From Neisseria sp. (GTDB lineage: Bacteria; Pseudomonadota; Gammaproteobacteria; Burkholderiales; Neisseriaceae), in NCBI GenBank assembly GCA_030538415.1, contig JAUNTY010000023.1, forward strand, positions 1 through 40,839: a stretch of DNA of 40,839 bases, given 5' to 3'. Position numbers and translations under genes: made by a program. The notes under the pieces were generated by a model. It had not been told where the DNA came from. It searched no databases and was given only the letters and a program-made list of their open reading frames with translations. This document shows positions 2,831 to 36,329 of the stretch, piece after piece. Positions within the stretch are counted from its first letter, which is position 1; every line of letters begins with the position of its first letter.

Positions 2831-3997
2831 ATGACCAGCCGCCGCGATTTTCTCAAGCTCGCCGCCCTTTTCAGCGCTGCAGGCAGCCTGCCGCTGTTGC
2901 AGGCTTGCGGCCAACGCGCCGCGCAAAATCCCGATGCGCCGCTGAAAATCGGCTACCTGCCGATTACCGATGCCACGCCCCTGCTGGTGGCGCACGCCGA
3001 GGGTTTGTTTGAAAAACACGGCATCAATGTCGAAAAACCGGTGTTGTTCCGCAGCTGGGCATCGCTGGTGGAAGCCTTTCTCAGCGGCCAGGTCAACCTG
3101 ATTCACCTGCTCTCGCCGATGAGCATTTGGGCGCGTTACGGCAGCGCCTCGCCGATTAAAGTGGTGATGTGGAACCATATGGCAGGCTCGGCGCTCACCG
3201 TCGCGCCCGATATCGCCACCGTTGCCGACTTGGGCGGCCAAACCGTGGCGATTCCGTTTTGGTATTCGATTCACAATGTGGTGTTGCAGAAAATCCTGCG
3301 CGAACACGGCCTCAAAGTGGTGGAGAAAAACCCGCAGGCAGGCGAAGTGAAGCTCAGCGTGATGGCGCCTTCCGACATGGTGGCCGCGCTCGCCAACCGC
3401 GCCATTGCCGGCTTTATCGTGGCCGAGCCGTTCAACGCCGTCGCCGAAGCCAAAGGCGTGGGCAAGGTATTGCGCTTTTCCGGCGATGTGTGGCGCGACC
3501 ATGCCTGCTGCGTGACCCTGATGCAGGAACACGACATCCAGCGCCGCCCCGAATGGGTGCAAAGCGTGGTCAACGCGCTGGTGGAAGGCCAGGCCTTTGC
3601 CGCCAAACACCGTGCCGACACCGCCGTGATGCTCTCCAAACAAGGCAAAAACCAATACACGCCGCACGAAGAAAAAGTGCTGCAAAACGTGCTCGCCCCC
3701 ACGCCCGATGCCTGGGCGCGCTACACCGAGCTCGGCATCATCCGCCACCCCGAATGGCGGCAAAACCGCATCGACTTCCAGCCCTACCCCTATCCTTCCT
3801 ACACCGAAAAACTGGTGGAAATGCTGAAAGAAACCCACATTGCGGGGGTGAACCGTTTTCTCGACGATTTAAGCCCCGCTCATGTGGCGCAGGATTTGGT
3901 GGACGACCGCTTTGTCAAACAAGCGGTGGAACGCGGCGGCTTCCAGCAACTTTTCGGCCTGAACGGCTGGACGCGCGAAGAAACGATTGTGGTGTGA
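2831..3997 (+). CDS. ABC transporter substrate-binding lipoprotein (NMT1/SsuA/NrtA-like) with Tat-type signal
   Basis: This 388-residue protein captures substrate in the periplasm and hands it to the permease. The N-terminus MTSRRDFLKLAALF carries a twin-arginine motif followed by a hydrophobic segment and a lipobox LLQAC (Cys26). It is therefore probably exported folded and lipid-anchored. The mature protein begins with IGYLPITDATPLLVAHAEGLFEKHGI, the usual first lobe of the NMT1/NrtA/SsuA fold. The later phrases HLLSPMSIWARYG and FIVAEPFNAVAEA are also typical of it. AAGGA lies ahead of the ATG. It is flanked by the ATPase and permease genes of the same operon. Nitrate, sulfonate, taurine, cyanate or a pyrimidine precursor are all possible ligands, and nothing in the neighbourhood decides between them. 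Confidence 0.88.
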   Translation: MTSRRDFLKLAALFSAAGSLPLLQACGQRAAQNPDAPLKIGYLPITDATPLLVAHAEGLFEKHGINVEKPVLFRSWASLVEAFLSGQVNLIHLLSPMSIWARYGSASPIKVVMWNHMAGSALTVAPDIATVADLGGQTVAIPFWYSIHNVVLQKILREHGLKVVEKNPQAGEVKLSVMAPSDMVAALANRAIAGFIVAEPFNAVAEAKGVGKVLRFSGDVWRDHACCVTLMQEHDIQRRPEWVQSVVNALVEGQAFAAKHRADTAVMLSKQGKNQYTPHEEKVLQNVLAPTPDAWARYTELGIIRHPEWRQNRIDFQPYPYPSYTEKLVEMLKETHIAGVNRFLDDLSPAHVAQDLVDDRFVKQAVERGGFQQLFGLNGWTREETIVV

Positions 3998-4932: not shown

Positions 4933-5115
4933 TATAGTCGTTCCGTTAGTTTGATACAGCGTTGCTGTGCCTTGCCGTACTATAGTCGGAGAAATTAGAT
5001 TCTGATACAAGGCGGCGAACCGCAGACAGTACAGATAGTACGGCAAGGAGAGCCAACGCCGTAGCAGAAACTCATTTCTTCGACTATATAGCCGTCAATT
5101 TAGATTGAGACAAGG
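4933..5115. mobile_element. Composite of Correia-type elements (nested, rearranged)
   Basis: The left half of a type-B CREE (TATAGTCGTTCCG, ending CCGTAC at 4980) is followed directly by a complete 108-bp type-A CREE (4981-5088; ends TATAGTCGGAG and TTCGACTATA). After that comes an inverted end fragment of type B (TATAGCCGTCAATTTAG to about 5115). The left junction is the same TA in the core that is used at three other loci. The right arm does not continue the type-B core, so this copy was rearranged after insertion. Confidence 0.8.
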
Positions 5116-16618: not shown

Positions 16619-16725
16619 TATAGCGAAATAAAATAAGAAAGATACAAGGCGGCAAGCCGAAGACAGTACAAACAGTACGGCAAGGCGCAGCTAACGCAGT
16701 AGATTTCTTATTTTATTTCGCTATA
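16619..16725. mobile_element. Full Correia-type element (type D ends) overlapping a gene 3' end
   Basis: A 107-bp copy with ends TATAGCGAAATAAAATAAG and their complement. The core (ACAAGGCGGCAAGCCGAAGA, then ACAGTACGGCAAGGCG) is the standard one. The right end overlaps the last codons of the minus-strand gene at 16708-17490. Confidence 0.85.
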
Positions 16726-20734: not shown

Positions 20735-20945
20735 TATAGTCGGAGATGTAGCTTCTGATACAAGGCGGCGAGCCGCAGACAGTACAGATATAGTGGGAAA
20801 ACTTAATTCCTACTACGGCGTTGCTTCGCCTAGCCGTACTATCTGTACTGTCTGCGGCTTGCTGCCTTGTATTAGAGTAAGTTTTCCCACTATAGTACGG
20901 CAAGGCGAGCCAACGCCGTAGCAGAAACTCATTTCTTCGACTATA
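20735..20945. mobile_element. Type-A Correia element carrying a nested element
   Basis: The outer copy begins TATAGTCGGAGATG (20735) and ends TTCTTCGACTATA (20945). Its core is interrupted exactly at the TA of CAGA-TA-GTACGG by a second element at 20789-20894, with TA on both sides of the insert. It fills nearly all of the gap between the two M16 genes. Confidence 0.88.
20789..20894. mobile_element. Nested Correia-type element (type C ends)
   Basis: A 106-bp copy with ends TATAGTGGGAAAACTTA and AAGTTTTCCCACTATA inserted in the core of the outer type-A element. These ends are the closest in the window to the classic meningococcal CREE end TATAGTGG. Its core reads in opposite orientation to that of the host copy. 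Confidence 0.88.
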
Positions 20946-22301: not shown

Positions 22302-22406
22302 TATAGTCAGTTAAAATAAGAAGAAGACAAGGCGGCGAGTCGCGGACAGTACAAATAGTACGGCAAGGCGTAGCAGCTGTAGCAGATATTAAGTTTAACC
22401 ACTATA
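22302..22406. mobile_element. Full Correia-type element, variant ends
   Basis: A 105-bp copy with ends TATAGTCAGTTAAAATAAG and TTAAGTTTAACCACTATA. The core has AAGGCGGCGAGTCGCGGACA and AGTACGGCAAGGCG. Directly before it, 22288-22301 matches an end fragment of a type-B element (TAGTCGTTTCAATT), so an earlier element may have been truncated here. Confidence 0.8.
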
Positions 22407-28251: not shown

Positions 28252-28358
28252 TATAGTCGGAGATGTAGATTCTGATACAAGGCGGCGAGCCGCAGACAGT
28301 ACAGATAGTACGACAAGGCGAGCCAACGCCGTAGCAGAAACTCAGTTCTCCGGCTATA
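28252..28358. mobile_element. Full Correia-type element (type A)
   Basis: A 107-bp copy with ends TATAGTCGGAGATGTAG and CAGTTCTCCGGCTATA. The core is complete (ACAAGGCGGCGAGCCGCAGA, AGTACGACAAGGCGAGCC). It is uninterrupted and lies between the ABC permease and ATPase genes. Confidence 0.88.
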
Positions 28359-32397: not shown

Positions 32398-32607
32398 TAT
32401 AGTCGGAGAAATTAGATTCTGATACAAGGCGGCGAGCCGCAGACAATACAGATATAGTCGTTTCGTTAGTTTGATACAGCGTTGCTGCACCTTGCCGTAC
32501 TATCTGTACTGTCTGCGGCTTGCTGCTTTGTCTCAATCTAAATTGAAATGACTATAGTACGGCAAGGCGAGCCAACGCCGTAGCAGAAACTCATTTCTTC
32601 GGCTATA
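32398..32607. mobile_element. Type-A Correia element carrying a nested type-B element
   Basis: The outer copy runs from TATAGTCGGAGAAATTAG (32398) to CATTTCTTCGGCTATA (32607). It is split at the TA of CAGA-TA-GTACGG by a complete type-B element (32453-32556), with TA at both junctions. The gap it occupies (32356-32794) has no gene. Confidence 0.88.
32453..32556. mobile_element. Nested Correia-type element (type B ends)
   Basis: A 104-bp copy with ends TATAGTCGTTTCGTTAG and CTAAATTGAAATGACTATA. Its core lies in opposite orientation to the host element (CCGTACTATCTGTACTGTCT). Confidence 0.88.
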
Positions 32608-36125: not shown

Positions 36126-36329
36126 TATAGTCGTTTCGTTAGTTTGATACAGCGTTGCTGCGCCTTGCCGTACTATAGTCGGAGAGTAAGTTTTAATACA
36201 AGGCGGCGAGCCGCAGACAGTACAGGTAGTACGGCAAGGCGAGCCAACGCCGTAGTAAAACTTACTCTCTGACTATATCTGTACTGTCTGCAGCTTGCTG
36301 CCTTGTCTCAATCTAACGAAACGACTATA
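36126..36329. mobile_element. Type-B Correia element carrying a nested element
   Basis: The outer copy runs from TATAGTCGTTTCGTTAG (36126) to CTAACGAAACGACTATA (36329). It is split at CCGTAC-TA-TCTGTACTG, the complement of the same TA used at 20789 and 32453, by an element at 36174-36277. The rest of the 35994-36489 gap holds AT-rich sequence and DUS copies. Confidence 0.88.
36174..36277. mobile_element. Nested Correia-type element (A-like ends)
   Basis: A 104-bp copy with ends TATAGTCGGAGAGTAAGTTT and AAACTTACTCTCTGACTATA. The start TATAGTCGGAGA is type A, and the following GTAAGTTTT matches the inner part of the type-C ends, so its termini look like a hybrid. Confidence 0.85.

Follow-up and report, generated by a model that had tools for sequence, protein, structure and literature searches.

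At positions 20735 to 20945 of the DNA analysed here, one short repeat lies inside another, and the same arrangement recurs elsewhere in the stretch at the same TA dinucleotide of the host repeat. The locus raises the question of whether copies of the repeat serve as landing sites for later copies and, if so, what distinguishes this TA from the others. The window (the whole stretch analysed, 40,839 nucleotides) is contig C59 of a Neisseria genome of 2.84 Mb in 106 contigs, which is included as G000 in a comparison set of 46 genus genomes. The window has a GC content of 57% and contains 72 copies of the uptake sequence GCCGTCTGAA.

Nested elements in the window

The elements of the window, with hosts split by guests, are as follows.

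20735..20945, plus strand: host Correia element of end type A, interrupted at the core TA (direct reading; the rejoined halves match another element at 95%, item 114)
20789..20894, minus strand: guest Correia element of end type B, with TA at each junction and in inverse orientation to the host core (direct reading and flank comparison)
32398..32607, plus strand: host Correia element of type A, split at its core TA (direct reading and flank comparison, item 117)
32453..32556, minus strand: guest Correia element of type C, in inverse orientation to the host core (direct reading and flank comparison)
36126..36329, minus strand: host Correia element of type C, split at its core TA (direct reading and flank comparison, item 118)
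36174..36277, plus strand: guest Correia element, A-like, in inverse orientation to the host core (direct reading and flank comparison)
4933..4980, minus strand: right half of a host of type C, running up to the core TA, its other half not adjoining the guest (half composite)
4981..5088, plus strand: complete guest, type A, of this half composite (direct reading)
22302..22406, plus strand: complete element whose left flank resembles a type C end cut at an end-proximal TA (CAATT-TA); possible half composite of a second site class (item 115)
28252..28358, plus strand: type A element with intact core CAGATAGTAC, its flanks without recognised host sequence (direct reading)
16619..16725, plus strand: element with TATAGC ends and core GTACAAACAGTAC, without the core TA (direct reading)

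Direct reading places each guest of the 20735, 32398 and 36126 loci at CAGA-TA-GTACGG, or its complement, with TA at either junction. The guest at 4981-5088 has the host core at its left only, and at its right a type C end fragment in the orientation opposite to that expected. The coordinates, complete guests and junctions of all four loci (4933-5115 with the host core on the left side only) were as the preliminary description had given them. Two inverted uptake sequences, TTTTCAGACGGCCT and AGGCCGTCTGAAAA, bracket the composite at 32398-32607 (window:32375-32625). Genome G038 is without elements at the 32398 and 36126 loci, and its intergenic DNA is too diverged for the pre-insertion TA to be read.

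Identity of the elements

The 119 complete elements of the sample described below comprise 109 of 102-112 bp and 10 of 152-156 bp, in agreement with the Correia size classes of about 104-108 and 153-157 bp. Nested guests carry the TA target duplication, with TA on both junctions. The core of Correia elements, GACAGTACARATAGTACGG, is present, and the long form carries an additional internal stretch of about 50 bp. By size, TATAGT inverted ends, TA duplication and core, the repeats are, as judged from sequence, Correia elements. The consulted portions of two accounts of Correia elements (CREE, NEMIS) describe properties that include the ends, the TA duplication and the core (PMC2649163, PMC3898611).

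Nested insertions across the genome

An exact pattern for full composites at the core TA, GTACNNNTATAGT-N(80,105)-ACTATAGTAC, has 28 matches (13 + 15) in the whole genome and none in a reversed control. This pattern misses the window locus at 32398, where the host reads AATAC, so the true total is at least 29. Genome-wide there are also 59 matches to the right junction ACTATAGTACG (control, 0), 318 intact cores GTACRNNTAGTACG and 276 elements whose ends match exactly (control, 4). The recurrent use of one core TA, first described from three full composites and one half composite in the window, thus extends to the genome at large.

The position of nested insertions within the host was recorded in a sample of 60 stretches plus the window (963,761 bases, 34% of the genome), all chosen without regard to nesting except the window, which contributes 3 of the 18 core cases. 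Some of the sampled contigs were among those with elements in the matches listed and others were taken by contig number (C28-C38 minus C30; C39-C58); the composite matches were already known when the sample was drawn but were not used for choosing. Elements were required to have TATAGT-type ends and a length of 98-113 or 148-161 bp, and the flanks of each were joined with one TA and then compared with elements. Twenty-five of the 119 complete elements are nested: 18 at the core TA, six at a TA located 15-19 bases from an end (for example, GGAGAAAT-TA-GATTC), and one with a match too weak to place. Among the core cases, the host of item 37 is just 73% alike, and item 36 carries two extra bases. 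Eight further elements are half composites, with a host core on one side only (items 36, 37 and 117 being placed as full), and some others, without an exact count, adjoin a host end at just one flank.

The core TA accounts for 18 of the 24 placed nested insertions, compared with 10.6% expected from equal use of every TA in an element (p 2e-13). The excess persists without the window (15/21, p 7e-11) and without the window and item 37 (14/20, p 5e-10). The argument that this bias is hard to explain by chance among the available TAs is therefore borne out, and insertions are not spread over many TA sites. The claim of one fixed TA stands as a preference but not as an exclusive rule, because a second class of sites near element ends received 6 of the 24. 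The core TA is the preferred, not the exclusive, landing site within older Correia copies. The 155-bp form is also entered at the core TA, which lies off its centre (item 22 of the census), so that the geometric centre of the host is disfavoured as the target.

Target preference at the core TA

A preference matrix was derived from 86 non-nested targets, or from 60 after removal of 26 with element-like flanks, the intergenic TAs used for comparison being defined by a crude reading-frame mask rather than a gene finder. Non-nested targets avoid C at -2 and G at +2 and favour A/T three bases out. By the 60-target matrix, the occupied core TAs are at percentiles 94-96 of intergenic TAs in 17 of 18 cases (77 in the other), and the six occupied end TAs at percentiles 83-99; 11 other TA contexts of typical hosts are at percentiles 5-84, eight of them at 53 or below. 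Occupied cores also lean toward the better-scoring variants, with AGA in 24/28 occupied cores (whole genome) versus 71/114 intact cores (sample; p 0.024) and AGG in 0/28 versus 19/114 (p 0.025), two tests that are uncorrected and not independent. In G001, the cores mostly have the disfavoured C at -2, and there are no exact core composites among its 290 elements. These observations favour ordinary TA targeting, in which the core TA would simply be the best local sequence in the element. They show in part that the local taste of the inserting enzyme suits core and end TAs and disfavours most other inner TAs, a real effect but not the full explanation.

However, a model of local preference predicts fewer insertions at the core than were found (p 2e-6 with three bases a side and 2e-7 with four; 4e-5 and 5e-6, respectively, without the window). 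It also predicts 6.5-6.8 of 24 insertions at inner TAs, where none was observed; the model counted the TAs of complete elements only, with those of occupied hosts left out. Core TAs are more often filled (18/112) than high-scoring end TAs (6/113, p 0.01) or score-matched intergenic TAs (21/647, p 1e-6). This comparison took every core site in the complete elements and, in elements of up to 113 bases, the end sites with a score of at least 1.2, a value that one of the six occupied end sites does not reach. Because the local model predicts 24-28% at the core and 75% is observed, the core appears to have an extra pull beyond local taste. Ordinary targeting alone is a real possibility, but an unlikely one.

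The preliminary description proposed a palindrome-guided target, in which GTAC-AGATA-GTAC would extrude and present its loop to the inserting enzyme. The core is indeed an inverted repeat, AGATA occupies the apical loop when the fold of a type A element is predicted with RNA parameters, and the host at 32398 is the one located between inverted uptake sequences. As a general rule, however, hairpin or palindrome targeting is unsupported: stems around the TA average 2.81 at the 86 non-nested targets versus 3.07 at 3,987 other intergenic TAs, stems of 6 or more occur at 2/86 versus 174/3,987, and the inserted TA sits at the edge of AGATA, off the centre of the repeat. The stem comparison covers targets outside cores, and the GTAC arms within the core itself may have a role, but guidance by a hairpin is improbable. 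Uptake sequences near targets are mildly enriched (21/86 versus 973/6,604; p 0.02, uncorrected).

Selection alone could also concentrate insertions in old elements, if insertions there were harmless and hence kept. End TAs in elements are slightly fuller than matched intergenic TAs (6/113 versus 21/647), a difference that is not significant (p 0.27), but selection cannot choose among the TAs of one element, where the core bias shows. We consider this reading quite improbable.

Independence of the insertions

The composites bear 20 labels of host, guest and orientation as assigned by script, or 18-19 once look-alike labels are merged by hand, so that the variety of host and guest end types remarked in the window holds genome-wide. 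Guest and host divergence are uncorrelated (Mantel r -0.08, p 0.82, with the left host half of L001 unparsed and entered incomplete), and the DNA flanking the composites differs from locus to locus. Because of these 18-19 combinations and differing flanks, the data show repeated insertion, not duplication of one composite, and descent of all nested copies from a single ancestor, an outcome that the preliminary description had named as fatal to its proposal, is unsupported. That one composite spread as a 205-bp mobile unit, or was copied into further hosts through gene conversion, is very unlikely: guests mostly share the inverted orientation (24/28) and those of L005 and L012 are identical, but the many combinations, the lack of guest-host correlation, the differing flanks and the use of the same TA by other element families in records from elsewhere all stand against it.

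Guest orientation and half composites

The excess of inverted guests in full composites genome-wide is significant (p 0.0002). In the sample, full composites have 16 inverted and two direct guests, and half composites two inverted and six direct (full versus half, p 0.003); pooled over both, 18 inverted versus 8 direct guests is not a significant excess (p 0.08). If direct guests collapse by recombination of like halves, the end type of the survivor must equal that of the residual half. Judged by eye, four of the six direct half composites are informative, and all four match this prediction (L078, L055, L029 and, more loosely, L041), while L060 is uninformative. The excess of inverted guests fits a collapse of direct guests into half composites. 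Elements with unlike or unclassified ends make up 19/119 of the sample by a crude typing. At L084:6775-6876, an apparent host end, cut at its end site, stands on the left and half of a host core on the right, an arrangement that recombination between two guests of a single host would give; by eye, this half composite resembles a loss of host DNA between end site and core.

Relatives and other records

The core search in relatives found the same TA in use, with six exact core-TA composites in 4 of the 45 other genus genomes, but nesting is far rarer there despite as many elements. Core-TA composites, several with another guest family, are also present in records of N. elongata, Neisseria sp. 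HMSC077D05 and Pasteurella testudinis, the first two of which may overlap with the 45 genomes. The ratio of composites to intact cores is 28/318 in the source genome, 3/257 in G019, 1/249 in G020, 1/178 in G027, 0/293 in G001, 0/253 in G024, 0/108 in G007, 0/28 in G011 and 0/9 in G043, the core pattern for the source genome differing slightly from that for relatives; the difference from the source genome has p 0.0008 or less for six relatives (G011 and G043 being outside the test).

Because G007, with AGA in 40 of the 50 cores among the matches listed, has no exact composite and G020 has only one, core sequence alone does not explain nesting frequency. Among the matches listed for G001, 12 cores have AGA, one has AAA and the rest have ACA or GCA. 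The lineage difference may reflect waves of element types, a different transposase, or a scarcity of good TAs in a GC-rich genome.

Several other arrangements were seen in these records. In G001, which has many near-identical elements, a truncated element end stopping at CATT-TA or CTTT-TA stands before one IS630 copy and before each of two complete elements; the truncated ends that precede complete elements at L123:5062 and L124:1194 are cut at these end-proximal sites and not at the core. A second short family, with core GTACTACCCGTAC, GTACTAACCGTAC or GTACGGATAGTAC and TATAGTGGATTAAAA ends, is a guest in Correia cores of other Neisseria (L129, L130, L049, L051). In the Pasteurella testudinis record, a Correia-like element is nested at the core TA of another (L050:5199-5317), and the 8-kb stretch around it contains uptake sequences of two kinds, six of the Neisseria type and three of the Pasteurellaceae type.

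A candidate transposase

The mechanism that mobilises Correia elements was called undetermined in 2009 in the part of one account available to us (PMC2649163), and an IS1106 (IS5-family) transposase was suggested in the same year in the consulted part of another (PMC3898611). The proposed search for a transposase with TATAGT-like ends succeeded in relatives, which contain IS630-family insertion sequences with similar ends, but not in the source genome, where none was found. Matches to the DDE_3 profile (PF13358) occur in 21 of the 46 genus genomes; a profile search gave none in the source genome, whose assembly is 96% complete, and none in G024, though 131 elements are present there. In the sample of the source genome, a search for autonomous copies yielded eight pairs of Correia-type ends 500-2,500 bases apart, which are read as probable ends of separate or broken elements.

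At IS630-family loci of four relatives, TATAGT repeats are present on both sides in 17 of 20 cases. Twenty further IS630 stretches have TATAG at both ends (13), TATAGT and TATAAT (2, in G038) or TATAGATTC (2), and three were not placed. The sequence TATAGTCGAAGAAATTA is common to two IS630 copies of G038 and to type A ends of the source genome. In hand-picked pairs of IS630 and Correia ends, six of seven match at 20-24 of 26-27 bases, where the best pair (G011) uses as partner a TATAGT-ended element that is only possibly Correia, the Correia right end in the G019 row is a left-type end by its inner motif, and the G005-type row pairs the G005 end with an insertion sequence end of another genome. 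The seventh pair (G020, one base shorter, ungapped) matches at 15/27 (p 0.30), no better than chance. Across the 46 genomes, counts of TATAGT-ended elements correlate with DDE_3 counts (Spearman 0.49, p 0.0005, with kinship and chance pattern matches ignored). With their Correia-like ends, the IS630-family insertion sequences of relatives are the likely source of the transposase for Correia elements. In the three uninterrupted IS630 copies of relatives that were translated (L092, L094, L095), the transposase gene is split over two overlapping frames, presumably as in programmed frameshifting.

Proposed mechanism

Correia elements are probably TA-inserting miniature transposons with a preferred core TA, moved by an IS630-type transposase, whose direct guests collapse. 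On this reading, they would insert at TA and duplicate it; as the sequence shows, the TA of CAGA-TA-GTACGG in an older copy is the preferred site for varied guest types in varied hosts, with a lesser class of sites 15-19 bases from element ends. The local taste of the inserting enzyme (against C at -2 and G at +2, for A/T three bases out), which the matrix partly shows, would favour core and end TAs, and the wider core may add attraction, for example through the AGTAC motifs on both sides of AGATA. Similar motifs (AGTAC/AGGAC) occur in the inner part of IS630 ends, and those of the core might serve as transposase binding sites. The enzyme itself would belong to the IS630 (Tc1/mariner-like) family, as its similar ends and TA targets suggest, and be encoded in relatives, the source genome having yielded none. 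Direct guests would later collapse by recombination between repeated halves into half composites and hybrid-ended elements, leaving inverted guests predominant, a step that the half composites support.

The preliminary view of copies as landing pads holds for this genome insofar as the element itself furnishes a preferred TA, which guests have entered repeatedly and in many combinations of host and guest. A bolder version is that the core is a self-made landing pad, in which the two AGTAC motifs, kin to the inner portion of the terminal repeats, act as internal binding sites for an IS630-type transposase and place the complex on the TA between them, while nesting and direct-repeat collapse mint hybrid end types; we offer it tentatively and regard it as rather doubtful. 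If true, it would explain the many end types of the source genome. Nested cores constitute a natural insertion assay in which the other TAs of the same host are a built-in control, and the question of how Correia elements move becomes directly testable with the similarly ended IS630 insertion sequences of relatives. Nesting may also be a route to hybrid elements among repeats to which the consulted parts of the literature ascribe promoters and sites for IHF and RNase III.

Comparison with known systems

The elements resemble Correia elements (CREE, NEMIS) in their forms of about 105 and 155 bp, TATAGT inverted ends, TA duplication and conserved core. They differ in that the source genome has many end types and frequent nesting at the core TA, nested copies being absent from the consulted portions of two accounts (PMC2649163, PMC3898611). 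In the literature searched, portions of which were available, no account was found of Correia nesting at a fixed TA or of an IS630 partner; the founding surveys lay outside this search, and an earlier mention is possible. RUP of Streptococcus pneumoniae is likewise a miniature element, of 107 bp, with a TA target and ends common to IS630 (IS630-Spn1), but the consulted part of its description reports that it targets insertion sequences and not its own core (PMC2229807). The pneumococcal repeats BOX, RUP and SPRITE are also small repeats inserted in one another in a naturally competent bacterium, although the part of the report consulted does not give a fixed insertion point within the host repeat (PMC3049150). 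Plant LTR retrotransposons, in the consulted portion of one account, are similarly nested, with older elements targeted in particular regions (PMC6911290), but these are eukaryotic retrotransposons.
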